21,096 nucleotides of DNA from a virus (IMGVR_UViG_3300012008_000032:1-21096); one strand, 5' to 3'. Counted from the stretch's first letter, positions 3 through 15,829 are shown. Notes: generated by a model from the sequence alone, not told the origin. Made by a program: numbers and translations.

Positions 3-827
3 ACCTTCCCTGATGATCCCGGTAATCAAGCGAAGTACATGGATGAACTCCAGAACCGGATCAAGACATCTTCCGCCGTGATGACGAGCGCGAACCGTGA
101 AATGCAACTGAACATTCGGAACACGGTTCAGTCGGAACTTGTGCAGTCGGTTCAGGGTGGAACCCCGCCGGTTTCTTACGACCAGCTTTCGCTGAAGGCG
201 CAACAGGCTTACGACCTCGCGCCACCGGCCTTGCAGCAAGTATTCCAAAAGCAAATGCGCGCGAATGCGACTGCAGATGTGCCGCTGACCGCCGATCGAC
301 AGAGCCTCATGGACACGCTCCGTGGGGAGTCGAAGAATGAGCCAGATAAGTTCATGGCGCGGAATGTAACTGAACTTGACTTGACCCGCGTTCAAAAATC
401 GCAGGCTATTGGCTGGCAACAGGATCGGCAGAAACTCCTCGCACAGGGAACGAAAATGTCTGCCGCAATGTCCTCGATGACGCCGCTGCTGAATGATGCT
501 GGCATTGGAAAGTCGGCCACCGATACTTCGCGGAACGCGGAATATAATAAGTTCTCGGGCGTTTATGAACAGGCGCTGACTGCGTTTGAGGATCAGCATA
601 AGCGGCCCCCGAACGATAAAGAGGCGCGCGACATTGGAACAGGGTTGCTCAAAACAATCGTGACTTCGCCGGGTTACATCTACGACAGCACCGACCGCGC
701 CTACAATGCCATTGCGACTAAAACACCAGTCACACTGAACACAACCGATCCCGGCGCGCACTATGCAAGTCTACCCTCCGGTGTATCCTTTCGCGGCCCT
801 GACGGAAAATTGAGGAAAAAGCCATGA
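3..827 (+). CDS. Internal virion protein, C-terminal part (5' end outside window)
   Basis: The reading frame is open through the left edge of the window, so the ATG at 39 is probably an internal methionine and the gene starts upstream. The visible 274 codons are polar, Gln/Ala-rich and largely helical in character, with pieces such as FPDDPGNQAKY and KRPPNDKEARDIG. These resemble the C-terminal half of podovirus internal (ejection) proteins that carry a lytic transglycosylase domain at their N-terminus. That enzymatic part would lie outside the window, so the transglycosylase assignment is inference. The stop TGA (825-827) overlaps the ATG of the next gene (ATGA), which implies translational coupling with the giant virion protein. 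Both would be made late, packaged in the capsid and possibly ejected with the DNA. Confidence 0.7.
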   Translation, partial: TFPDDPGNQAKYMDELQNRIKTSSAVMTSANREMQLNIRNTVQSELVQSVQGGTPPVSYDQLSLKAQQAYDLAPPALQQVFQKQMRANATADVPLTADRQSLMDTLRGESKNEPDKFMARNVTELDLTRVQKSQAIGWQQDRQKLLAQGTKMSAAMSSMTPLLNDAGIGKSATDTSRNAEYNKFSGVYEQALTAFEDQHKRPPNDKEARDIGTGLLKTIVTSPGYIYDSTDRAYNAIATKTPVTLNTTDPGAHYASLPSGVSFRGPDGKLRKKP

Positions 828-3800
828 CCGACTGGGCCTCCGCACCAGAAACCTCATTGCCGCAGGCTCCGCAAACGCCGGATGCAACTGACTGGACAGC
901 CGCGCCTCCGGTTGACTCGACGCCGCAGACGAAAGCTGTTGTCGGCGCAATGGGCAACCCGGATGAGGCCGGGAAAGCCGTTGGGATCGCCGCACGAACG
1001 GGCATTCCGGCCCCAGTGGTGCAAACCGACCTTCCGGGTTACACGGCCCATGCGGCCACGCAGGACGCCGTTAAAGCGGTGCAAAACCCACATATTGCAT
1101 CATATGTTGACGGTCATCCAATGGCCGCGAAAGTGTCGGCTGACGACTACAATAAACTGGATGACATATCGAAACTAATTCAGGCAATATCTCCGCACGA
1201 AATAAATTCTGAATCAAATCGCCAAGTTGTGAATAGCATTCCTGAACTTGTCGAAGCACTAAGCACCGCACCGGGCCGCGCTAAACTTGGTAGCGCACTT
1301 TACAATTTACCATTCACTGCCGCTGGAGACGTTGTTGATGTACTGCGAGCGGGAACAGAAGCCGCGACCGCAGAGTTGATGCACGGCGCAACTCGACGCG
1401 CAAGTGGGGTGCCCCTAGGCTCCTTTACTGACTCGTTTATGAACCAAGTCTATGACCTCGGCCATGTTGGCGCAGGCCTTTTCGGTTGGGCGACCTCGCC
1501 GTTCCTGCCTACATTTGGCCTTGCAAAAACGTTCCTTGCCCGACCTCTTGCCATCGCTGAGAATATTCCACTAGAGCAAGCTACGAGTGATGTTGGAACT
1601 GCGCTTCTTGGAATGCGACCAACACTTGGCGGCGCTCGTGGAGTTCCTCCTGCTGAGCCTCCGAACAGTAACTTTGAAAATTTTATGTCCGCCGCTCGCG
1701 GCGCTAAAACACGTGCTGAAATGGATGACTTCCTGCGTAAGCGCGCCGAAGAAACAAATGGTGATGTTGGAAAACAACTTCAGATTACACAAGCTAAGAC
1801 TGCTTCTGAGGGTCTCGACGCCGTTGTGAAGGCCGCGCAGGACTCGAAAACCAAACAGCGGTCCCCGCAAATGTTCGAGGACTTCGCGGCGCAGCACGAT
1901 GATCCGAACCTGCATATTAACGCGCAGACGGCGCTTGACCTTTATAAAAAGGAGGGCAAGACCCCGGCCGAAGGTGACGGCCTGCTCGGCTTCATCCCTG
2001 GCCTCGCCGATCAACTCGAGACCGCAAGCGGGACCGGCGGGGAGATCACGACGCCGCTGAGTAAGTACGTCGCGAACATCGACCCAACTGTGCATGAGGC
2101 ACTGAAGGACAATATTCGCCTGCATGATGACGGGACTACGCTGGCAGAGGCCGAAGAGCTGAAAAAGACTGTTGATGTAAGTGAGATGAATGCGCCCTTG
2201 GTGCGAACACTTGCAGACCATTTCCCGGAAATGTTTGGAGAGAAGGATACGGGTGTATTACCCGATGATACAGCCGGACAGGTCACTGATGCAAATGCGC
2301 CTGCGGCCGAGGGCACCAACGTCCAAGCAACTCCCGGCGTGAACGCGAGCCGACTCGCGAAGTTGCTTGGCCCGAAGCTCTACGGCGAGCCGACGAATAT
2401 GGCGACGGTCTCTGTCAAGGAAATGATGCAAAACGCCTTCGATGCGGTGAAGGGACATCTTGAGAAGGGTATTATCACCAAGGGCAAAATTCATATTACG
2501 ACTGACGAGCAGTCGCGCACCATTACTGTTTCCGACAACGGCTCCGGTATGACACCGGAAGTTCTCGGCAAGCAGTTCCTCGAAATCGCCGGGACGAATA
2601 AGGAGACTCAACAGGCCTCCGGCGGACTTGGTATTGCGAAAATGCTATTCCTGTTCGGAAATAAGAACCTCGCTGTCCGGACCGTGCGGGATGGAAAAGT
2701 CTCGACGATGCAGACTACCGGCGAGGACCTTTTTGCCGCGCTGAATGATCCTTCGCGCGCACCGAGTATCAATATTCGGAATGCAACTCCAGAAGAACTG
2801 GCCTCGCATCCACATGGTACGACTGTTTCGGTGCAAGTGCCTGAACAGTTCAAGGACCCTTCATCCGGAGAAATGCGGAGTATCGACTTTCCTTCATCTT
2901 CATGGAAGCATCCAGTTCTTGTTAAAAGTCCTCTCTTTCACAATATTGAGGTTCGGCACAGCCGCGACATAGATAACCATACTGACGGCGATCCCCTTCC
3001 AATCGGTGCGCACTTTCCTCATAAGGACTATACTCAGTTTGCGAATATGAACTTCGACTGGGGCACAGCGCACGTTTACGTCTCGAAAGAGCCAGTTAAA
3101 GCATACAGCGAGAACAATGTTGAAGTCCTTTCAAACGGACTGTGGCAGTTCGATACCGCTATTAAAAAGAACCCACAAGAGGCGTATGGTGACAGTATAG
3201 ATCGCAAGTTCATTATTGATATTGCTCCAAGGGTCTCGCCAGAGGAGGCCGGGTATCCTTTTGACCTGAACCGGCAGCAGTTTGTCAATCAGACGAAAAA
3301 GGACTTTGGGAACTTCTTTAACTACGTTTCGAAGCTCTACAGTCAGATGGATTTCAGCACGGAGGTTAAGAACTGGGGCTCCATTCAGTATATGAAAAAA
3401 GGGCCAACCGGCGAAGTTCAGACAACCGACTCGAAGCAGCTTGCGCCCCCGGTGCCGGAACGGCCTACGGCTGCAAATGCTATTAATGAGGGTGATGAAG
3501 TTAATGTGAAGGACGGTAGGCTCGTCGTTAACGGGCGCGAAATTCCTGAACTCTCTGGAAAGGATATTAAGGACTTTCAGGTCGATGTTAATGAACTGAA
3601 ATTTGATCAGAATGACATTGATCCGACGAAGCCGATCTTGCACGATAATATCGACGTTGCTGGCGATAATAAAGTTACTTCGCTCGTACAACTTGGCCGT
3701 GAGAAGTTTGGTAAGCGCTTCGACAGCTACGTCTACGGCATCGGTCAGGCCTTCCTCGAACTTCGCGATCTTACCGCAACCATTCTTAAATATCCTGAAC

Positions 3801-6800
3801 TGAAAAAAGAGGGCCTTGGCGTCAGCTTCGATTCCAAGTATCGTGGTATCAGCATTCGCGTCCCGTTCTCTGGCATGTTCATCAACCCCGCCGTTCCTGC
3901 CTATACCGAGCCGGTCAAGGCCGCTGTCGGCATGGTCGGCACCATGATCCATGAACTCGCACACTTCAAAGTCCGCTCGCACAACGCGGAATTTCCTGCT
4001 GAAATGCAGAACATTCAAATCCATCTTGATGAATTGCAGCACTTGATGGAGTCGCTTAACGATGGTGGTGCTGCTTTCGATATGTGGGCCTTCAAAAAGA
4101 GGGTCATCAACCTTGTAAAGGATCACGCAGATGTCCTCAGTTGGCTCAACGAAACAGTCACCAAAGGGGATATTTCCCCTCGTGGAAAGCGCTTCCAAGA
4201 AGCTAGCGCCTACCAAGCCAGAAATGCAGGCGACGCTGGAAAGCTGGAACCAGGACAAGACCTTCGACCCAGCGCTGAAAGTACTGGAGACGAGCAAGGA
4301 CATTCCGGAGTTCCTCCGCAAACTCCAGAGCCAACCGCAGACGAGTTAAAGGCGGCGGCCCCGGCGGAAGCGGCGAAGCAGTCGCTGTATCTGCATCAAT
4401 TGTTCCAAGACCCGAAATCGGTTGGACTTACTGCGCCGGAGTTCAAAAAGTACTCGGACTCAGTGCAAAATGCAAATAAGGAAATGATCGAGAAGTCGAT
4501 CAAGAATGATATTCTGAAACGGAACGCGCCAGAATGGAAAGCGCGGAAAGCTGAAATGACGGCGCAGGTTGAAGATCAACTCTCGCGCGCCGGGCGCTTT
4601 GCCGCGCAAAAGTACCTCGACGAGAATAAAATTGCGCTTACCCCTGAGTCCGCCGACCAACTTGCGCCGATGTTTGGCTACGGCTCCGGCGCGGGAATGC
4701 AGGCGGCACTGAAGAACGTGCCCGATTTCGTGCAGACTGTTAAGAACGAGGTCGCCGCGCAGATGGAAGCGCGGTATGGGAACCGGATGGCACAGGCCAC
4801 GCAAGAGGCAAAGGAACTGGCGTTGAGTGATAAGTGGCAGGGTGTTCTCGCGAATGAGGTTCGCATCCTCGCGAAAGCGGCCGGGGCCGATCCTGCACTC
4901 CAACACACGGACCTTGTTCAGTGGGCCAAGGACAATTTCGAGAAGTCGAATATCGTTCAGGCCGCGGACTGGGAAAAGAACCGGCGCGCAGTTGAGAAGG
5001 GTGGCCGCGAGGCCGAAAAGGCATTGCTTAAAGGTGATAAGCTCGAGGCCTTCAAAGCCAAACAGCGCCAATTCCTCGCGGCGGTGCAGGCGAAAGAGAG
5101 CCTCAAATTACAGCGCCTGATTGACTCAGCCGAAAAGAAGATCGACAACTTCTCATCGAAGGAGACTATTCCCTCGATCGACCAAACTCACCTTGAGCAA
5201 ATTCGACAGGTCCTCGCCTCGGTTGGAGTGCCGCAACAGTTTCAGGCATCTGCCCCGCTGGAGTCGCCCGCGCAATTTGTTGCAGACTCAAACGGTCAAA
5301 TCGCAGCGGCACCGTGGTTGATAAATGGCAGGCCACCGAAGCTGCCAGAAATGACTGTGGAGCAGTTCCGTGGCTTCACTGACACGATCAAGTCGATGGA
5401 GAATGCGGGCCGCTACGCGATGACGCTGGAGAATGCGCGGGGCAAAGCGGAATTGCAAAATGTCGTGTTCGACATTAAGAAGGAACTTGATCGGTTTAAC
5501 TTCATCGACCAGCCACTTAACCCTTCCTTAGGTCAGCGCGCAAATGCACTCGGGCGCAGGATCATTGGCGCGCACCTTCTTGTTGAGCGTATGTTCGACT
5601 ATACCGACCGCTTTGATCCGCACGGCCCGATTACTGAATGGATGGATCGGCCGCTCCGCGACAGCAACTCGAAGGAAATTGCGCTGACGGAGCAGGTGAC
5701 GAAGATGCTCAGGGATCTTAAATCCCTGACCGACCCTTCGATTAACGAGTTAATTCCAAACTCAACCATTCCTGATAAGATGGCGAAGTCTGGCTTCGCG
5801 CAGATGTCGCGCGCCAACCTACGTCAACTTGCCCTGAACATGGGGAACGAGACGAACATTAAAAAGGTCGTTGAGGGCTTTGGTGTGGCCGAGGATAAAG
5901 TCTGGGGCCTCCTCAACTCGAACATGACGAAGAAGGATTGGCAATGGACTCAGGGCGTGTGGGACATTTTCGCACACCTGAAGCCAGAGGCCGATGCAAT
6001 GCAACTGCGGGATACAGGAGTTCCAGTTGATTCGAAAGTCTCCCGCGCCATTAGTAATGTGCATGGTGAGTTTGCTGGCGGTTATTATCCGATTGTTTAT
6101 GATCGGTTTAATTCTGACATACAGGGTACGCTTGCGTCTAAAAACCCTATCTTCGATAAGAACTACGTCAGCGCGACTACGCCCCACGGCTACACCGAAA
6201 GCGTCACCGGATATAAAGGAGCCCTTGATTTAACAGGCTCGTTCCTCGCCTCGCGGTTGCAGGGGATGGTGCACGATATTGCGTTCAGGGAAGCTATTCG
6301 GAATGCGAATAAACTGATCTCTAATCAGGAATTCCGCACGGCGCTGGCGCAGAAGTGGGGGAAAGAATTTGCGGAGCTTCTCCCATCTTGGTTGAAGGAT
6401 ATTGCGAACTCGCACTTGCTCGATGATAACTACGCGCAGGGCATTGCGCGGGCGATGGCGATCGTCAGGCAGAATACGATCTCAACTCTGATCGCGTTTA
6501 ATCCCGGCACCTTTATGAAGCATGGTTTCACCGCCGCACTTCTGTCCGCCGACCGCGTTGGAGGGAAACCGCTACTGGAGGCGATGAAAGATATTGGGCT
6601 GAAAGGTGCAGCCCAAACCGCGAAGGACCTCGTTATTAGAAATAAGCGCGAGCCGGATGAGGCCTTCATGCAGGCTATGAGGGACTCACTCGACCAAGGT
6701 GAGCGCGGCGATAACGTGCGCCAGTTCATTCTAGACTCCAGTCCCGTCATGCGTAACCGGCAACGCCAGTACGACGACTCGATCCGGGGCGCGGTTGACT

Positions 6801-7657
6801 CGATGAATAAAGCGGGGTTTACAAAACTCCTTGCTGATGGGCGTCAAAACGCAATGCTACTCGGTCGCATGGCCGTGGCCTACAGTGACGGTATGAGCGC
6901 GATGCCGACTTGGTGGGCAGCGTATAAGAAGGCGTACCTTGGTGGCGAGACTCATGCGGACGCGGCCTTCATCGCGGATAAGGAAGTCTCGCGCACACAC
7001 GGATCGTCCTTTGTCGGGGACCAGCCTTTAGTCACTCGTATCCCAAATGGGATGGGCGGGGAAGTTCTCCGTTGGTTCGTGCCACTGTATAAATTCTGGA
7101 ACCATGTGGTGAACAATAACTTTCAGTTAACGTGGGATGCTGCGGCGACGATACGAGGACCGCGACCGGGTGAAGCACCGGAGCCGGGCGCGAATGCGGC
7201 CTCATTAGCGAAAAAGATTGCCGTGATTATTGCCACGATTTATATCGAAGAACAATCCTCGGCGGCGCTTGACGAGAGCAAACACGGTTTCCTCGCACAG
7301 ATGGCCCTCGCCTCATTACGGTATTTCGGCGGCGGAATTATTGGTCTACGCGAAATTACCAATTCACTTGCTTATGGCAATGAGCCATCTGTTGGTATGC
7401 TCGGTACTGTTATGAAAGCAGGTGCGCAGACGATTAGGGACATTGCGAAATCAACTTCCTCTGCCGGCGCCGTTAGTAAAGATTGGCTTATCCATACCGC
7501 AACTGCAATCGGTATGCTTACCGGCGTCGGTGGAACTCAAATTGGCAAGACCGGGTCCTTTGCTAAGGACCTCGCTAGCGGAAAAGAGAACCCACAGAAC
7601 TTCAACGCCTTCCGTCAAGGCCTCCGTACTGGACACTCGAAAGCGAGGAACCACTAA
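824..7657 (+). CDS. Giant polyvalent virion protein with GHKL ATPase and metalloprotease domains
   Basis: A 2277-residue intact frame starts at ATG 824, preceded by a GAGGAA ribosome site. The N-terminus has two DW-x2-AP motifs. Residues about 520-880 look like a GHKL (HSP90/gyrase B/histidine kinase) ATPase: N box E533-M-M-Q-N537-A-F-D540, G1 box D571-NGSGM, and G2 box beginning G600-GLG. Residues about 960-1080 contain a zincin motif H1043-E-L-A-H1047, as in gluzincin metalloproteases. A Pro/Gly/Glu-rich linker follows (about 1110-1185), then long charged helical regions. The C-terminal third (ARAMAIVRQNT, then RWFVPLYKFWNH near residue 2085) resembles the C-terminal region of large podovirus internal or polyvalent proteins. 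By family logic such proteins are packaged and injected to act on host targets early. The domain calls are from motifs; the infection role is inference. Confidence 0.85.
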   Translation: MTDWASAPETSLPQAPQTPDATDWTAAPPVDSTPQTKAVVGAMGNPDEAGKAVGIAARTGIPAPVVQTDLPGYTAHAATQDAVKAVQNPHIASYVDGHPMAAKVSADDYNKLDDISKLIQAISPHEINSESNRQVVNSIPELVEALSTAPGRAKLGSALYNLPFTAAGDVVDVLRAGTEAATAELMHGATRRASGVPLGSFTDSFMNQVYDLGHVGAGLFGWATSPFLPTFGLAKTFLARPLAIAENIPLEQATSDVGTALLGMRPTLGGARGVPPAEPPNSNFENFMSAARGAKTRAEMDDFLRKRAEETNGDVGKQLQITQAKTASEGLDAVVKAAQDSKTKQRSPQMFEDFAAQHDDPNLHINAQTALDLYKKEGKTPAEGDGLLGFIPGLADQLETASGTGGEITTPLSKYVANIDPTVHEALKDNIRLHDDGTTLAEAEELKKTVDVSEMNAPLVRTLADHFPEMFGEKDTGVLPDDTAGQVTDANAPAAEGTNVQATPGVNASRLAKLLGPKLYGEPTNMATVSVKEMMQNAFDAVKGHLEKGIITKGKIHITTDEQSRTITVSDNGSGMTPEVLGKQFLEIAGTNKETQQASGGLGIAKMLFLFGNKNLAVRTVRDGKVSTMQTTGEDLFAALNDPSRAPSINIRNATPEELASHPHGTTVSVQVPEQFKDPSSGEMRSIDFPSSSWKHPVLVKSPLFHNIEVRHSRDIDNHTDGDPLPIGAHFPHKDYTQFANMNFDWGTAHVYVSKEPVKAYSENNVEVLSNGLWQFDTAIKKNPQEAYGDSIDRKFIIDIAPRVSPEEAGYPFDLNRQQFVNQTKKDFGNFFNYVSKLYSQMDFSTEVKNWGSIQYMKKGPTGEVQTTDSKQLAPPVPERPTAANAINEGDEVNVKDGRLVVNGREIPELSGKDIKDFQVDVNELKFDQNDIDPTKPILHDNIDVAGDNKVTSLVQLGREKFGKRFDSYVYGIGQAFLELRDLTATILKYPELKKEGLGVSFDSKYRGISIRVPFSGMFINPAVPAYTEPVKAAVGMVGTMIHELAHFKVRSHNAEFPAEMQNIQIHLDELQHLMESLNDGGAAFDMWAFKKRVINLVKDHADVLSWLNETVTKGDISPRGKRFQEASAYQARNAGDAGKLEPGQDLRPSAESTGDEQGHSGVPPQTPEPTADELKAAAPAEAAKQSLYLHQLFQDPKSVGLTAPEFKKYSDSVQNANKEMIEKSIKNDILKRNAPEWKARKAEMTAQVEDQLSRAGRFAAQKYLDENKIALTPESADQLAPMFGYGSGAGMQAALKNVPDFVQTVKNEVAAQMEARYGNRMAQATQEAKELALSDKWQGVLANEVRILAKAAGADPALQHTDLVQWAKDNFEKSNIVQAADWEKNRRAVEKGGREAEKALLKGDKLEAFKAKQRQFLAAVQAKESLKLQRLIDSAEKKIDNFSSKETIPSIDQTHLEQIRQVLASVGVPQQFQASAPLESPAQFVADSNGQIAAAPWLINGRPPKLPEMTVEQFRGFTDTIKSMENAGRYAMTLENARGKAELQNVVFDIKKELDRFNFIDQPLNPSLGQRANALGRRIIGAHLLVERMFDYTDRFDPHGPITEWMDRPLRDSNSKEIALTEQVTKMLRDLKSLTDPSINELIPNSTIPDKMAKSGFAQMSRANLRQLALNMGNETNIKKVVEGFGVAEDKVWGLLNSNMTKKDWQWTQGVWDIFAHLKPEADAMQLRDTGVPVDSKVSRAISNVHGEFAGGYYPIVYDRFNSDIQGTLASKNPIFDKNYVSATTPHGYTESVTGYKGALDLTGSFLASRLQGMVHDIAFREAIRNANKLISNQEFRTALAQKWGKEFAELLPSWLKDIANSHLLDDNYAQGIARAMAIVRQNTISTLIAFNPGTFMKHGFTAALLSADRVGGKPLLEAMKDIGLKGAAQTAKDLVIRNKREPDEAFMQAMRDSLDQGERGDNVRQFILDSSPVMRNRQRQYDDSIRGAVDSMNKAGFTKLLADGRQNAMLLGRMAVAYSDGMSAMPTWWAAYKKAYLGGETHADAAFIADKEVSRTHGSSFVGDQPLVTRIPNGMGGEVLRWFVPLYKFWNHVVNNNFQLTWDAAATIRGPRPGEAPEPGANAASLAKKIAVIIATIYIEEQSSAALDESKHGFLAQMALASLRYFGGGIIGLREITNSLAYGNEPSVGMLGTVMKAGAQTIRDIAKSTSSAGAVSKDWLIHTATAIGMLTGVGGTQIGKTGSFAKDLASGKENPQNFNAFRQGLRTGHSKARNH

Positions 7658-8979
7658 TGACTGTCAACACCACGACGAATAAAGCGCTTTTTGATGGAAA
7701 TGGAGCCGCGACCACGTTCGCATACACCTTCCCAATCCCAGATGCAACTTACCTCCAGTTGTGGTACACCGATGCGTCTGGAACCACAACGCAGGTTCCG
7801 CTGAGCGGGTACTCCGTTACAGGAATTGGTTCTCCGATTGGTGGCATCGTGACTTATCCACTAAGCGGGGCGCCAATTCCGAACGGCTCCGAACTCGCGA
7901 TCCTTCGCGTCCTTCCTTACAAGCAAACGACAGACCTCGTGAACCAAAGTGGGTTCTATCCTAATGTTGTTGAGGGTGGACTTGACGATTTGGAAATGCA
8001 GCTTCAGCAGTTAATTGAAGTTGAGACGCGGAACTTGACCGTCGCGGTGACGGACTCACCTCCTGGTCAACTCCCAGCTGCGGCAGCGCGCGCTAGTCAA
8101 CTTCTTGGTTTCGATGCCAGTGGTAATGCTATTGCGGCGCAACCATCTTCTGCAATCGTCTCTACCGCAATGCAGCCAGTTGTAAATGCGGCAACAGTCG
8201 CAATCGCGCTTGCGCTTTTGGGCGGCTCCTCCCTCCCAGCCGGTATTGAAGTTGACTGGCCGGGACTGGTTGCACCGACAGGTTGGTATCTTGAATACGG
8301 GCAAACAGAAAACCGTGCCGCCAACCCAAATCTTTTAGCCGCACTTGCCCCTACTTTCGCTTGTGTGATAACGAGTGGTTCAAATGCGATTACTGGCATT
8401 TCGAGTACCGACGGCTGGTATACAGGTATGCCGATTGAAAGCGCAGGCTTTCCGTCTGGAACTACCATCACGCCTACCTCGTCAACGACTGCGACGGCGA
8501 GCGTCAACGCCACCGCAGCTTCTTCCGCGATGCAAGTGTTTCCTTGGGGTAATGGCGACGGCGCAACTACGTTCAATATGCCAGACGGCCGAGGTTACGT
8601 TTATGCCGGTAAGGATAATATGGGTGGAACTCCCGTAAACCGGTTAACTACAGCGCAGTTTGGAGATGCCACGATCCTTGGTAAAACCGGAGGCAATCAA
8701 GGAGTTACGTTGACGCAAGCGCAACTCAGTGTAGCGCTTGGAACAGCGGCCTCAACCGTGTCTGACCCAGGACATGGCCACTCAGGCGCATTTTTAGCGC
8801 TTGGCACACAGTCGAGTGCCGGCGGTTCATATACGATGGGCGACGTTACTGTAAGAAATACAGGGCAATCTGCTACTGGAATTAGTGTTGCTACCACCAT
8901 CACTAATGCTGCTGGCGGCAACGCTCACTCGAACGTACAACCAACTTCAATCCGCAATAAGATCATCAAAGGAGGCTGA
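7657..8979 (+). CDS. Tail fibre/collar protein
   Basis: 440 residues starting at an ATG that overlaps the previous stop (TAATG), with GAGGAA upstream. The N-terminal ~130 residues (FDGNGAATTFAYTF..., then YPNVVEGGLDDLEMQLQQL) match the N-terminal attachment domain found in many podovirus tail fibres. The C-terminal half is a phage tail collar-type module: PTGWYLEYGQ, then WGNGDGATTFNMPDGRG, a histidine-rich GHGHS, and a final NVQPTSIRNKIIKGG, the usual shape of the collar C-terminus. A Ser/Thr-rich segment of about 60 residues (8361-8540) is inserted in the collar module. It contains a GMPIESAGFPSGTTI-like motif seen as a small beta domain in other tail proteins. It probably forms part of the host-recognition tail spike or fibre. 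Confidence 0.85.
   Translation: MTVNTTTNKALFDGNGAATTFAYTFPIPDATYLQLWYTDASGTTTQVPLSGYSVTGIGSPIGGIVTYPLSGAPIPNGSELAILRVLPYKQTTDLVNQSGFYPNVVEGGLDDLEMQLQQLIEVETRNLTVAVTDSPPGQLPAAAARASQLLGFDASGNAIAAQPSSAIVSTAMQPVVNAATVAIALALLGGSSLPAGIEVDWPGLVAPTGWYLEYGQTENRAANPNLLAALAPTFACVITSGSNAITGISSTDGWYTGMPIESAGFPSGTTITPTSSTTATASVNATAASSAMQVFPWGNGDGATTFNMPDGRGYVYAGKDNMGGTPVNRLTTAQFGDATILGKTGGNQGVTLTQAQLSVALGTAASTVSDPGHGHSGAFLALGTQSSAGGSYTMGDVTVRNTGQSATGISVATTITNAAGGNAHSNVQPTSIRNKIIKGG
8968..8975 (+). promoter_or_regulatory. Strong ribosome binding site of the endolysin gene
   Basis: AAAGGAGG lies 6 bases before ATG 8982. This near-perfect Shine-Dalgarno sequence fixes the start of the endolysin in the frame that later runs into the wrong reading frame. 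It shows that the downstream frame at 9058 is not an independently initiated gene but the continuation of this one. Confidence 0.75.
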
Positions 8980-11312: not shown

Positions 11313-12529
11313 GCTTTCGGCGCAGGAACGTAGCCGTTAACCCCGCCGGTGCAGTCGAGTTTAATTATCCCAGAGCGCACCATGATTTCAATGACCTTCA
11401 TTATATTATGCGACGGCACTTTCGAGCGAAGGAAATTTACAACTCGGTGCTCGCTGACAGGTTTCTTTTCCTTTGAATAAAAACGGAAGATAAAATCCCA
11501 GGTATCGTCAATCGCTGCCGAGTCACCAGCAACTCCCATTGTATGGAAGATGTCCACGACACGTTCTTCGGCGTTGAGAAGCCAGCCGAGGGCCGTTTGG
11601 TAGTCCTCAACACTGATAATAAGGTCTGATGATCTTGAAATTGATGCGACCATGCAGAGCTTAATAACGTGCGCGAGACGGCGCGAGTTATAATGCGTGA
11701 GCTTGTTGTGGTCGGGGACTGGTGGTAGGCCCGCGCGGTTCCATGCGGAGATCGCTTCAGCCGCCTCCTTCTCCCAAGACATCTTTCCGTAAAGGGAAGC
11801 TATCTGTTTAAGGTCGCGGAGCAATTCGAGGTAGAGCGCCTCGATGGATTTATATTCAGTTTCCTCGCTAAAGATTTCTGAGAAAATAGTTTCGCCACTG
11901 TATATGAATAGAGTGCGGGAGGTGAATCCTTGATCCCACGCGCCCTCCGGTAGGAATGAGTTAAGGTATGAGGGGGTGGTCCCGCCGAGGATCGAAAGGT
12001 GTGGGTTCTCAATTTTAAGATGGTTGACCTTGCCGGTGCGGCGGCGCTCTTCGTAGTGCTCGCCGTCGTAGAACTTGGTAAGACTGTTCATAAACAGCGG
12101 GTCGTATATCGGTAGAAATACTCCGAGTTCGGATGCGACCGCTGTGAGATAATGGAATTGTATAAACGAGGGAACCTCGTTCGGACGGATAATCTTACGG
12201 TCAGCAAGCACCAAAGAGTCCACCAAGGAAGCTGCACTAACTGAGGACGGCGTGATTTTAAGATCAGGAACTGCGCGCAGAAGACGTTCTGCTTGAGATA
12301 GTACTGCGGACTTTCCAACTCCAGGGGGTCCCACCAATATCGTATAGAGGTTCGGGTAGAGGTTTGAACCCTTTGTATGCACCCACAGCCGTCTTTCCAT
12401 TGCGCCACTGAGAATACCAATGGCCGCCCACTGACGGAATATCTTTGGCGAAGCAGTGGTCTCAGTAAGTTCGACAAAGGATGCTATCCAGTTTGGAAGC
12501 TTGCGTTGAAGAAGTCCGCTTGCGGTCAT
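11309..12529 (-). CDS. DUF3987-like ATPase, putative replicative helicase
   Basis: 406 residues from ATG 12529, chosen over the ATG at 12556 because AAGGG lies 5 bases upstream and the product then begins like relatives (LPNWIASFVE). A Walker A motif GPPGVGKS follows about 50 residues later. Downstream, VASELGVF may supply the acidic Walker B-like residue, and LSILGGTTPSYL fits a sensor region, as in DUF3987-type phage primase/helicase ATPases. The C-terminal ~90 residues look like a small winged-helix domain. I infer that it works with the polymerase next door as the replicative helicase or helicase loader. It overlaps the end of the polymerase gene by 68 bases, is the last gene of the - strand unit, and ends in the CTAG shared with the convergent gene. 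Confidence 0.7.
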   Translation of the reverse strand: MTASGLLQRKLPNWIASFVELTETTASPKIFRQWAAIGILSGAMERRLWVHTKGSNLYPNLYTILVGPPGVGKSAVLSQAERLLRAVPDLKITPSSVSAASLVDSLVLADRKIIRPNEVPSFIQFHYLTAVASELGVFLPIYDPLFMNSLTKFYDGEHYEERRRTGKVNHLKIENPHLSILGGTTPSYLNSFLPEGAWDQGFTSRTLFIYSGETIFSEIFSEETEYKSIEALYLELLRDLKQIASLYGKMSWEKEAAEAISAWNRAGLPPVPDHNKLTHYNSRRLAHVIKLCMVASISRSSDLIISVEDYQTALGWLLNAEERVVDIFHTMGVAGDSAAIDDTWDFIFRFYSKEKKPVSEHRVVNFLRSKVPSHNIMKVIEIMVRSGIIKLDCTGGVNGYVPAPKA

Positions 12530-13988
12530 CGTGGCCCTTATATTTCCGCAACCCATCCGGGTTGTCTTTGTCTTGCTTCGCCCAGTTCCAGCCGGTTTGC
12601 GCTTCTGATGGAATTATAAGGGTGCGGGCGTTGTTGAGTTGTATGGGGACTTTGATTGCTTCAAGGAGTTGGGGGAGGATTTTATCTTCTTCGTTTTCAG
12701 GATATTGAACTAAGATCGCATCATGTATTTGTAGAAGGAGCTGGCATATATTAAGGCGCCAAACGCGGAGCATTCCCTGATTTAGAATGTCCCCCACAGC
12801 GCCTTGAGGGCCGTAAGCAATGGCCTCGCGAATGGTAGTGTCATCATTACGGCGGCCGAAAAACCAGCGACGACGGCCAGTAATAGTAACCAAATTCCCC
12901 GTCTGAATAAGTTCGCTCGCGACCGCTGCGTGCCAGCGCTGGTGAGCGGGGAAGGCGGTGAAGTATTTGGTTTGGAACTCGCCGATAAGTCCTGCGGCAA
13001 GTTTGGTGTGCTTGGACATTGTGAAGGGCTTGCCGTTATAATTAGTTCCATGCCCAAGGACCTTCGCCATATGTCGATAGCTATGCTGTCGGTAGAAGGG
13101 TTGTTCAGCAACTTCTCGATCGAGTTTAATATCTTTGGATACAGACCAACTAAGATTTTCCCACGCGAGTCGACAAACAGACGTATGTAAATCCCCGGAC
13201 TCGCAGGCATCGAGGTATCGTCCGTCTCCGAACAAGTTCCACTCAATTGCTCCGACGAGTCGGGACTCGGCTTGTTCGAGATCGATGTAGGCGAACTTGA
13301 AACCGGGGTCGGCCATGAACGGACGGCGAAGTCTTTCTTCAATGTTTTGGAGATTCGTTCCAGTTCCAAAATCACTGAGTGAACTACTAAATCGGCCTGT
13401 CGTTGTACCTGCAATATTATAGGAGGTTCGCATTCTTCCATCCGAGTCAATTGAAGTTTTAAGGACTCCAATCTTTTTGCTAATATCCCGAAGCGCAAGG
13501 ATGTGGCTGATAATGGGCTGTGCATTGAAATACGTATCCAGTTTTTCGAGTGCGTTTCTATCTGCGGTGATGGTGAAAACGCCCTTGGCGTTCCGCTTCT
13601 TTTGCGGAGGCAGTTGTAGCACCTCATACAGTAGCTTCTTTAACTGGGCGGGACTATTCCAGTTGATGGGGAAGCCAATTCCCTCGACAAGGATGCGATT
13701 AAGTTGTCCCTCGATGGTTCGCAAGTCAGCGGAATAGGCTGCGATAGTTTTATCGCGCCATTCTTTATCGACCCTGACACCACGCATCCGCATCTCAAGC
13801 ACAGGTGCCTGTAGAGACTTGCTGAACTCGTAGGTTGCCCTGGTAATATTATCCAGTTGTGGCTTGATGACATCGAGAATCTCCGACGTGAGGCAGCAAT
13901 CGAGTCCGTTGTAAACCCAGTAACGGTGCATCTCGCCCATGAGGGCAATCTCGGTGGGGGTGAGGAGGTGGGTTTTGATGGCCTTCAC
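12462..13988 (-). CDS. Family A DNA polymerase, polymerase-domain half of a split enzyme
   Basis: 508 residues from a GTG start that overlaps the upstream stop (GTGA), with GAGCGAGG as ribosome site. Near the N-terminus Y26-N-G-L-D30 is the exo III motif (YxxxD) of a 3'-5' exonuclease whose exo I and II motifs lie in the separate gene at 14801-15829. The polymerase domain is complete: TGRFSSSLSDFGTGTNLQN, motif A D236-LEQAESR, motif B around RHMAKVLGHGTNYNG, and motif C H422-D-A. Motif C usually reads HDE and motif A usually DYSQIELR, so this is a divergent phage-type PolA. It should synthesise phage DNA and needs the other half for proofreading. Residues 1-22 before the exo III motif look like a new N-terminal cap. 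Confidence 0.88.
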   Translation of the reverse strand: MKAIKTHLLTPTEIALMGEMHRYWVYNGLDCCLTSEILDVIKPQLDNITRATYEFSKSLQAPVLEMRMRGVRVDKEWRDKTIAAYSADLRTIEGQLNRILVEGIGFPINWNSPAQLKKLLYEVLQLPPQKKRNAKGVFTITADRNALEKLDTYFNAQPIISHILALRDISKKIGVLKTSIDSDGRMRTSYNIAGTTTGRFSSSLSDFGTGTNLQNIEERLRRPFMADPGFKFAYIDLEQAESRLVGAIEWNLFGDGRYLDACESGDLHTSVCRLAWENLSWSVSKDIKLDREVAEQPFYRQHSYRHMAKVLGHGTNYNGKPFTMSKHTKLAAGLIGEFQTKYFTAFPAHQRWHAAVASELIQTGNLVTITGRRRWFFGRRNDDTTIREAIAYGPQGAVGDILNQGMLRVWRLNICQLLLQIHDAILVQYPENEEDKILPQLLEAIKVPIQLNNARTLIIPSEAQTGWNWAKQDKDNPDGLRKYKGHDDRKRTSSTQASKLDSILCRTY

Positions 13989-14320
13989 AGAATTTCCTCG
14001 CTCTTATTTTCGTCAATCCATCTGAGGTGGATCGGCTTATTCAGCCGCGCCGCCTTCACAATCCCGATAACCATGCCGCGAGTAATACCAAGGTCGCAAT
14101 ATACTGCAACGTGATCTGCAACCTCAAGCCACCCATCAGCAGCGGCAATACCCCGTCGGCGCTGGTCTGGGACTTTGTCATCCAACATACCTTTCTGTGT
14201 ATACAACAAGTGGCTTGCATAAGGTGATTCATCTCTCGCTAAAGAGTCAAGTACGCATCGCCTGCTGTATAACACGTTCTTCCAACCGCCAGCAAATGGA
14301 GACTCAACAATAACCCTCAT
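13985..14320 (-). CDS. DUF7768/nucleoside deoxyribosyltransferase-like protein
   Basis: 111 residues beginning MRVIVESPFAGG. The pattern (VESPFAG, RRCVLDSL, SPYASHLLYTQKGMLDD, EVADHVAVYCDLGITRGM) is that of small phage Rossmann-like proteins annotated DUF7768 or DUF4406-like and related to nucleoside 2-deoxyribosyltransferases. A nucleotide-related role is inference. It lies between the two polymerase halves, after the HNH gene (ATGA overlap) and before the polymerase start (GTGA overlap). It may have been carried in with the HNH gene, or it may be an original neighbour displaced into the split. Confidence 0.7.
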   Translation of the reverse strand: MRVIVESPFAGGWKNVLYSRRCVLDSLARDESPYASHLLYTQKGMLDDKVPDQRRRGIAAADGWLEVADHVAVYCDLGITRGMVIGIVKAARLNKPIHLRWIDENKSEEIL

Positions 14321-14799
14321 TTTAATTCGCCACGCTCTTGTGCTCTCATTCGTCTATGAAGAAGAGCGTGATATCGCTGGTCAGGACACACCACAAGATT
14401 AAAATATGAATAATTATCCGCTCTATTTTTATTCATATGATGAACTTGAGCGCCAGGAGGTAACCTTCTTCCCAAGGCCTTTTCAGCTAAGTAGATATGC
14501 TCATGAACAGGAACATCATCGACTTGAATATTGACATAGCCAGAACTGTTGTTTTGTGGGCGGATTAACTCAGTATGCCCGTTTCTAAACTTTCGAGCAT
14601 AGTGTTTATTGCACAGTCCTTTTGCTACTATGGCAGAAGCGCAATTCTCAATTGTGCAGACAAGCGAAACACCACTTACATTATTTTTATAAACTGTATT
14701 GCCCGTTCTATTCCAAAGAACGTAGTGCTTATTGCACATTCCACGCGCTGAGTTGGCTATACACGTACAGTCTTCAACAACGCATTCTGGTTTGAGCAT
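14317..14799 (-). CDS. HNH endonuclease (homing-type) between polymerase halves
   Basis: 160 residues. The C-terminal half has a full HNH signature: VHEH near 98-101, GRRLPPGAQVHH (H120, H121), then D128-N129, N134 and H144/H148, as in free-standing HNH homing nucleases of phages. The N-terminal half holds two copies of a C-x4-C...C-x2-H pattern (from C6 and from C48), each ending MCNKHY or LCNKHY. These are probably zinc ribbons for DNA contact. The gene begins 1 base after the stop of the exonuclease half and overlaps the next gene (ATGA). Such nucleases cut relatives that lack them and so spread. Its position in an apparently divided polymerase gene fits invasion of that gene. All catalytic residues seem present. 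Confidence 0.85.
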   Translation of the reverse strand: MLKPECVVEDCTCIANSARGMCNKHYVLWNRTGNTVYKNNVSGVSLVCTIENCASAIVAKGLCNKHYARKFRNGHTELIRPQNNSSGYVNIQVDDVPVHEHIYLAEKALGRRLPPGAQVHHMNKNRADNYSYFNLVVCPDQRYHALLHRRMRAQERGELK

Positions 14800-14800
14800 C

Positions 14801-15829
14801 TTAAGCGTCCCGTTTAATTGTTGCGGTTCTGCGGTTAAGAAGTTTCCACGAGGACTCGTTTGTGTATACAGAGCCTAAGAACCCAAGTCCTTTTAATGAT
14901 TCCGGTTGAAGGGCATGATGGCACAGCATTGTGTCGTCAGAGTAATTTGTTACGGTTATTCCGTATTTGACCCACAGGAAATTGATGTCGTATAAAGTAT
15001 TTTGTCCAAACTTGGGTTGGGGTAAGCTGAGAACGCGACGGACAAACCCCCATGCCAATATCTCAGCGTCTGTTGTAGGCCAATAACTTCCCACGTTACC
15101 GGGAGTAGTAACCCGAGAGTCTGTAAATGGGACAACAAGGGCTGTTCGGTGGTCGGGGGCAAAGCCGATGCAAGTAATTTGGTCTCCGCGCGTCTCAATA
15201 TCGAAAGAAATAGCTCGTGCGTTGAGGAGGTATTCGGCAAAGTACCACTCCATTTCTTCGAGGGACGGTTCAATGTAAACTATCCTTTCGGGGCGGCGGA
15301 TTTCAGGGAACTCGGCTTCGCGTTTGGCTTTTGCCAAGTCTAGTACCGTTACCGGGCGGAGGGACCAGTCGCGCTGAACATCAACTGGATGGTAGGTTGG
15401 GAGAATTTTCTTGCCCTGGGCGAATTTCCCATTGGCCTCGATAACGGTTCCGCGCGTGGCCTTGACTGAATAGGAACCGGTGAAGTACCATGAGGCGGCG
15501 GCGCCGAGGGGGACGATTATGTTGGGGTTGAGTTCCTTCAACTCAGTTTGAAGGCGCATAAGTTCAGGAAGGAACTCGGAGCGAATATAGCGTCCGGCCT
15601 TTAAGGAGTTAAGTGATGTAATCACTTGATCGGTTTTGGCGCCACAGAAGTGTTCGATGTCGTATGCCTTAATGTTGAAGACGTTTGTCATGAAACAGTC
15701 CGCGCGATGGATACTGGCCTCGTCGAACATTTTATTGAGGTTCCACCCAGCGGCCCCTGTGAAAGGGGCGCGCTGAGCGGCGTCCTCTGCGGACCAAAAG
15801 TCGCCGACGATGGCGATTTTCTGGCTCAT
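14801..15829 (-). CDS. Uracil-DNA glycosylase-like plus 3'-5' exonuclease half of a split family A DNA polymerase
   Basis: 342 residues. Residues 1-165 resemble the UDG-like domain found at the N-terminus of SPO1-type phage polymerases: G9-D-F-W-x2-E15, PFTGAAG (22-28), TNVFN (48-52), VPLGAAA and H147-P148. Residues about 200-330 are a DnaQ-like exonuclease: exo I F-D210-I-E212 and exo II Q-N277-x3-D281. The polypeptide ends at ...TIKRDA, just where intact relatives continue into the exo III motif and polymerase domain. Those parts are in the separate gene at 12462-13988. The start follows the DUF3310 gene by 5 bases without a strong ribosome site. The glycosylase part could remove uracil or simply bind DNA; activity cannot be judged. 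Confidence 0.82.
   Translation of the reverse strand: MSQKIAIVGDFWSAEDAAQRAPFTGAAGWNLNKMFDEASIHRADCFMTNVFNIKAYDIEHFCGAKTDQVITSLNSLKAGRYIRSEFLPELMRLQTELKELNPNIIVPLGAAASWYFTGSYSVKATRGTVIEANGKFAQGKKILPTYHPVDVQRDWSLRPVTVLDLAKAKREAEFPEIRRPERIVYIEPSLEEMEWYFAEYLLNARAISFDIETRGDQITCIGFAPDHRTALVVPFTDSRVTTPGNVGSYWPTTDAEILAWGFVRRVLSLPQPKFGQNTLYDINFLWVKYGITVTNYSDDTMLCHHALQPESLKGLGFLGSVYTNESSWKLLNRRTATIKRDA

Follow-up and report, generated by a model that had tools for sequence, protein, structure and literature searches.

The stretch of DNA analyzed here, called the window throughout, comprises 21,096 bases and is one of the virus records of IMG/VR. On its plus strand, the ORF 824-7657 encodes a protein of 2277 amino acids, as a sequence-only reading had claimed, and the residues which that reading had assigned to the N, G1, and G2 boxes of a GHKL ATPase and to a HELAH motif are all found in this one protein under the numbers given to them. 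The gene order around the ORF is the same as in Bordetella phage BPP-1. In BPP-1-like phages, the Bbp10-type gene is preceded by the genes of an internal virion protein and of a structural transglycosylase; the upstream fragment in the window has no match among the PHROGs, and its matches come from IMG/VR relatives in which this large gene is also present. Hence, the internal virion protein that had been proposed as a neighbor is right in kind. All features are collected in Table 1. Elsewhere in the window, a DNA polymerase (phrog_17) is distributed over two ORFs within 12462-15829 on the minus strand. The break apparently lies within the 3'-5' exonuclease part, Rfam indicated no intron there, and the arrangement reflects either a polymerase that is split or the insertion of a homing element.

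Table 1 Features of the large ORF and of its surroundings in the window. Fractions refer to aligned copies of the module
Feature	Position	Strand	Evidence or remark
Upstream gene, 3' part, probable internal virion gene	3..827	+	Matches upstream genes of L012, L013, L015, E 6e-16 to 1e-11
Bbp10-family polyvalent protein, whole ORF, 2277 aa	824..7657	+	ATG start; phrog_9880 E 2e-125; tblastn matches to proteins of podoviruses, among them BPP-1, Carin1, and AF
LPD22 domain of the conserved N-terminal scaffold, aa 44-121	953..1186	+	Pfam E 1.4e-11, above the curated cutoff; also in BPP-1, HU1, and Carin1 homologues
Last part of the N-terminal shell, conserved scaffold, aa 319-450	1778..2173	+	Shared with many relatives, among them L012, L013, and L015
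GHKL (Bergerat-fold) ATPase domain, aa ~501-690 (predicted)	2324..2893	+	Pfam HATPase_c_3/HATPase_c; AF2 model, Hsp90/GyrB Z~20
N-box KEMMQNAFDA, aa 532-541 (E533, N537, D540)	2420..2446	+	58/58 relatives having residues there
G1 box DNGSGM, aa 571-576	2534..2551	+	D571, G575, M576 59/59; G573 36 Gly/23 Ala
G2 box SGGLGIAKM, aa 599-607	2618..2644	+	G600, G603, A605, K606 59/59
Transducer (S5-like) domain, aa ~700-850 (predicted)	2921..3373	+	Hsp90 N+M/GyrB 43K/TopoVIB alignments; Q775, F776, R817 59/59
Wss1-like zincin domain, aa 925-1130 (predicted)	3596..4213	+	AF2 pLDDT 94 (modeled alone); Wss1 Z 8.0-8.5; profile match Wss1p 5xbn E 0.02
HELAHFKVRSH, predicted zinc site (HELAH 1043-1047)	3950..3982	+	H1043, E1044, H1047 59/59; H1053 57/59
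Conserved C-terminal Bbp10/phrog_9880 scaffold, aa 1170-2277	4331..7654	+	Relatives in podoviruses and in IMG/VR at 22-45% identity
Downstream tail fiber/collar-domain gene	7657..8979	+	phrog_8763, phrog_1640 tail protein; Pfam Collar
Polymerase ORF	12462-13988	-	phrog_17, profile 805-1242
Nucleoside 2-deoxyribosyltransferase-like ORF	13985-14320		Between the polymerase ORFs
HNH endonuclease	14317-14799		Between the polymerase ORFs
Polymerase ORF	14801-15829	-	phrog_17, profile 480-788

A conserved shell around a cargo slot

In a phage collection, tblastn found 40 relatives of the large protein, all through the C-terminal amino acids 1193-2277. They include Bbp10 of Bordetella phage BPP-1, gp32 of Cobetia phage Carin1, and proteins of Pseudomonas, Vibrio, Xanthomonas, and Caulobacter phages. 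Judged by this homologous C-terminal part of ~1000 amino acids and by its LPD22 N terminus, the product is a member of the Bbp10 family. LPD22, the segment of amino acids 319-450, and the C terminus are shared by 80 IMG/VR relatives, none of which matches amino acids ~450-1170. Because the shell is common to all 80 and this inner part to none, the latter represents a cargo slot. A Pfam scan of the slot in 75 relatives revealed ART-PolyVal in 24 of them; others contain PBECR1/3/5 RNases, GNAT, ddrB-ParB, RadC, or LPD domains. A GHKL domain was found in none of the 75 and is herein carried by the window protein only. The nearest relative of the window scaffold, L012, has a C terminus that is 45% identical and, as read from its sequence, an ART-like insert in the slot.

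A single giant protein of the virion cassette that combines effector domains of unrelated kinds is characteristic of polyvalent proteins, and the cargo-slot architecture matches the one described by Iyer et al. 2017 (PMC5512222). The features in common are the giant multidomain protein of the virion cassette, LPD22, ART/PBECR/GNAT/ParB cargo in the relatives, and a zincin. In contrast, the text of PMC5512222 contains no GHKL, Hsp90, histidine-kinase, or gyrase domain, and the zincins described therein use Glu as the third ligand, whereas the module zincin would use His. BPP-1 Bbp10 (phrog_9880) resembles the window protein in LPD22, a helical segment, the C-terminal 1100 amino acids, and the gene adjoining the tail fiber. 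It differs in its PBECR1 RNase cargo and in the CLCA_X-type zincin (PMC3650047), the signature of which is absent from the window protein, where a Wss1-like zincin lies in the cargo instead.

The GHKL ATPase and the zincin of the slot

The Pfam models HATPase_c_3 (amino acids 529-637, E 7.7e-8) and HATPase_c (amino acids 531-673, E 1.7e-6) match above their curated cutoffs. Conservation was counted over 59 aligned copies of the module, which share about 23 to 50% identity; in addition to the residues of Table 1, N1021 and P1022 are present in 59/59. The AF2 model of the module, calculated from the 59-row alignment, has a pLDDT of 81 and a pTM of 0.71. Its residues 12-360, corresponding to amino acids 497-845, align with Hsp90 N+middle, GyrB 43K, and TopoVIB at Z 18-20. 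Because the first 360 residues of the model match these proteins, a transducer is placed directly after the GHKL domain. The predicted structure thus bears out the GHKL fold read from the sequence (Hsp90/GyrB Z~20), and the protein, as modeled, contains GHKL-type boxes and a Bergerat fold followed by an S5-like transducer. The module profile also finds TRAP1 and HtpG (E about 1e-10), and R817 may be the counterpart of the catalytic Arg of Hsp90. The order of a GHKL and a transducer/middle domain is the same as in Hsp90 (HtpG, TRAP1) and GyrB, with Z about 20, but the module continues with a zincin and not with the C-terminal dimerization domain of Hsp90 or the Toprim domain of gyrase. GHKL proteins with a transducer are ATP-driven closing clamps, as is established for Hsp90, GyrB, and MutL.

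HELAH 1043-1047 is the only HExxH in the 2277 amino acids. A third His follows six residues past the second, which results in HExxHxxxxxH, the spacing of the Wss1/WLM type. The Pfam models WLM and YgjP-like zincin match this region below their cutoffs (21.7 bits versus a cutoff of 26 for WLM), and they match 11 and 14 of 50 relatives, respectively. The best structural matches of the zincin model are Wss1 of Saccharomyces cerevisiae and Schizosaccharomyces pombe with Z 7.4-8.5, the VIA-align matches at Z 8.0-8.5 having an rmsd of 2.9-3.1 over 104-114 residues; SPRTN (6mdw) reaches Z 5.9, which is under the level where a match informs. The top sequence matches of the zincin profile, Wss1p and proabylysin, are both marginal. 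Structure prediction hence yields the expected zincin, resembling Wss1 at Z~8, yet Foldseek returned nothing significant for the model (best E 0.29), so that the likeness to Wss1 is based on the third-His motif, the weak profile matches, and a Z of about 8. By these features, the HELAH zincin is predicted to be of the Wss1/WLM type with H1053 as the third His ligand.

Wss1 and SPRTN are DNA-protein crosslink proteases that share HExxHxxxxxH with the module and bear a likeness to it in fold (Z 8 for Wss1, 5.9 for SPRTN). The module differs from them by its fusion to a GHKL ATPase, by its net negative charge, and by having no visible DNA- or ubiquitin/SUMO-binding tails. The GHKL part has a median net charge of about -4, the zincin one of about -6; as neither is positive, direct DNA binding gains no support. 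An HxN motif (amino acids 940-942, positions 3641-3649) is located in the strand before the zincin helix, with H940 in 56/59 and N942 in 54/59 copies, and possibly lies near the active site.

Polyvalent virion proteins, including some with zincins, are already known, and so are phage GHKL ATPases (rIIA, topoisomerases). The combination of GHKL with a Wss1-like zincin appears to be undescribed in the searchable literature: no such fusion was found in the main texts of openly available papers, and a survey of jumbo phages, the only paper that came up for GHKL proteins in this connection, does not describe it. We know of no earlier GHKL ATPase directly fused to a protease.

Coupling and mobility of the module

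Sequence comparison identifies GHKL and zincin as a mobile module of ~650 amino acids (amino acids ~500-1130) that is present in several unrelated giant phage proteins. IMG/VR was scanned with separate seeds, herein the N-box pattern matched 76 contigs and the IHELAHFK pattern 18, mostly with the same module. Because the two seeds are separate, they provide a fair test of linkage. All three HExxH residues are present in every one of the 46 copies from the N-box seed, and the copies from the zinc-pattern seed have all GHKL residues wherever that part is complete. Among N-box ORFs with at least 600 amino acids downstream, 53/59 contain an HExxH 430-760 amino acids downstream, whereas control stretches taken from these ORFs contain one in 2.8% of cases. 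With amino acids 486-1169 as query, blastp found full-length matches in about 60 contigs at 27-48% identity, in proteins of 1000-3500 amino acids. As the module of ~650 amino acids recurs in large phage proteins, the pairing of GHKL and zincin is not due to chance. Thus, of the proposed combination of a GHKL ATPase and an HExxH protease in one virion-family protein, the joining stands and is conserved in many phages, but it is not peculiar to one protein. That GHKL is unique to this phage was likewise rejected: it is absent from the 80 nearest relatives, but the motif scans found other carriers.

A profile-seeded scan extends the list to 193 IMG/VR contigs that encode a relative of the module. 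HExxHxxxxxH is present in 80/80 of the best full-length matches of these contigs, a figure that is biased upwards by the selection. Among the named, cultured phages of the phage collection, no carrier was found; the virus protein A0A516L4L2 of UniProt matches by structure, with 34% identity over 688 columns. The single window sequence as query gave no module match in viral and genome contigs, where motif patterns and the 59-row alignment succeeded. The search of genome contigs yielded three metagenome-assembled contigs with module relatives (L188, L189, and L190), which are binned as Deltaproteobacteria, Neisseriaceae, and Woesearchaeota and are perhaps phage contigs or prophages.

The C termini of the carriers belong to at least three scaffold types, namely a large DarB-like group, LPD38/39, and the Bbp10 type. 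DarB-like carriers match phrog_10089, whereas the window protein matches phrog_9880 and not phrog_10089. DarB-like antirestriction virion proteins (phrog_10089; Bcep22/JC1 gp69, P1 DarB) therefore correspond to the C-terminal part of other carriers such as L125, but not to the Bbp10-type scaffold of the window protein. The copy of the module closest to that of the window (48-50% identity) is found in L125, with its DarB-like C terminus. In the module tree, which is a quick tree with long branches flagged, the window is placed beside L125 (SH-aLRT 93) within a fully supported group of 18, and the remaining four carriers of the Bbp10 type group apart from it in a clade of their own with a support of 100. 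Since the Bbp10-type carriers sit in two places, the tree requires at least two changes of scaffold, and the module entered Bbp10-type proteins at least twice. One carrier, L176, is chimeric, its N terminus grouping with Bbp10-type and its C terminus with DarB-like proteins. That a conserved ATPase-protease pair has moved among giant virion proteins of unrelated origin suggests that one and the same target or barrier in the host is involved.

Possible action at the start of infection

Virion-borne effectors are active in the first minutes of infection, ahead of phage gene expression, and are mostly uncharacterized. The two-enzyme module is probably such an effector of the start of infection, and no earlier description of it was found. 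We favor, with a probability of roughly 0.55, that the product of ORF 824-7657 is an ejection protein of the Bbp10 family, the cargo slot of which holds an ATP-driven GHKL ATPase and a Wss1/WLM-like protease that act in the new host. The family, the position of the gene, and the detection of the DarB-like gp69 of phage JC1 in virions by mass spectrometry (PMC9144972) suggest that the product resides in the virion. From homology, we infer packaging, ejection, enzymatic activity, and gating of the protease by ATP. The particle would pack the protein, which would enter the host together with the DNA. Cytoplasmic ATP would then bind to the GHKL part and close the clamp, as in Hsp90, GyrB, and MutL, and the conformational cycle would strip or present a substrate protein for cleavage by the zincin. 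As a tentative suggestion, drawn from the likeness to Wss1/SPRTN and from the DarB-like scaffolds, the substrate could be a protein of the host that binds the phage DNA as it enters. Somewhat more speculative is the generalization to a mobile injected class, in which a GHKL clamp would feed proteins on incoming DNA to a Wss1/SPRTN-type protease, as a counterdefense analogue of DNA-protein crosslink repair.

The main rival explanation, which we consider rather unlikely, is self-processing: the zincin would cleave its own polyvalent protein before packaging or after entry, and the GHKL part would act as a chaperone by which the resulting pieces are refolded or kept apart. Autoproteolysis has been proposed for zincins of polyvalent proteins, with the processing of P1 DdrB as an example (Iyer et al. 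2017, PMC5512222). In nearly all Bbp10 relatives, an HExxH precedes the C-terminal module by about 100-130 amino acids and is embedded in the signature DLSTxLHExGH ... HEQFARGFExYL ... EGKAPS; this type of zincin was described in 2013 as CLCA_X (PMC3650047; CLCA_X/MPTase type). It is missing from the window protein, and the module zincin could therefore fill its role. However, in the Bbp10-type carriers L103, L104, L107, and L159, the module is followed by a second HExxH (with EGKAPS in two of them), so that the module zincin is not a mere substitute. Furthermore, a profile comparison of both zincins aligns 20 columns around HExxH and no more, which argues for different enzymes. Because only the HExxH helix aligns and four carriers have both zincins, HELAH is part of the cargo module rather than of the scaffold; its identification as the zincin of Bbp10 itself, which is also contradicted by the different motif, was ruled out. 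The nearest relative L012 has no HExxH at all, hence the family can dispense with one, and the family zincin is not strictly defining. The HExxH sites in giant virion proteins thus comprise at least two unrelated zincins, likely with different jobs.

Alternatively, the module might be a counterdefense or superinfection factor of the rIIA kind, in which a virion protein acquired a T4 rIIA relative that was joined to a variable effector partner, here the protease. Among phage proteins, it is indeed rIIA proteins that match the GHKL part most closely, and T4 rIIA and rIIA-like proteins are phage-encoded GHKL ATPases with a remote resemblance to the module in sequence and fold. Yet the likeness is weak (tblastn E 0.2 to 5e-4, phrog_2979 E 0.044), and Hsp90s rank equally high in the structure search; among the PHROGs, the GHKL part matches phrog_6203, of unknown function, with E 3e-7. 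Moreover, rIIA-type proteins differ in being stand-alone and intracellular and in having an unrelated C-terminal part, and we know of no case of rIIA as a virion protein. This makes a role of that kind improbable. A transplanted stand-alone phrog_6203/rIIA protein as the source of the whole module was rejected, as two rIIA-type proteins examined contain no HExxH and no Wss1-like zincin. A structural or decayed domain that is kept in the scaffold without enzymatic function is very improbable, given that the residues of the ATP and zinc sites are fully or almost fully conserved among copies of about 23 to 50% identity and that enzymes otherwise occupy the cargo slot.

Further domains accompany the module in individual carriers. 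An extra conserved HELLH is located ~130-320 amino acids upstream of the module in the DarB-like proteins L173, L165, L177, L178, L171, L114, and L151. Odd fusion partners in the carriers (alignments A5/A6) comprise the FtsK gamma domain (four), sigma-70 region 1.1, the C-terminal domain of H-NS, an FAD oxidoreductase, and RadC.
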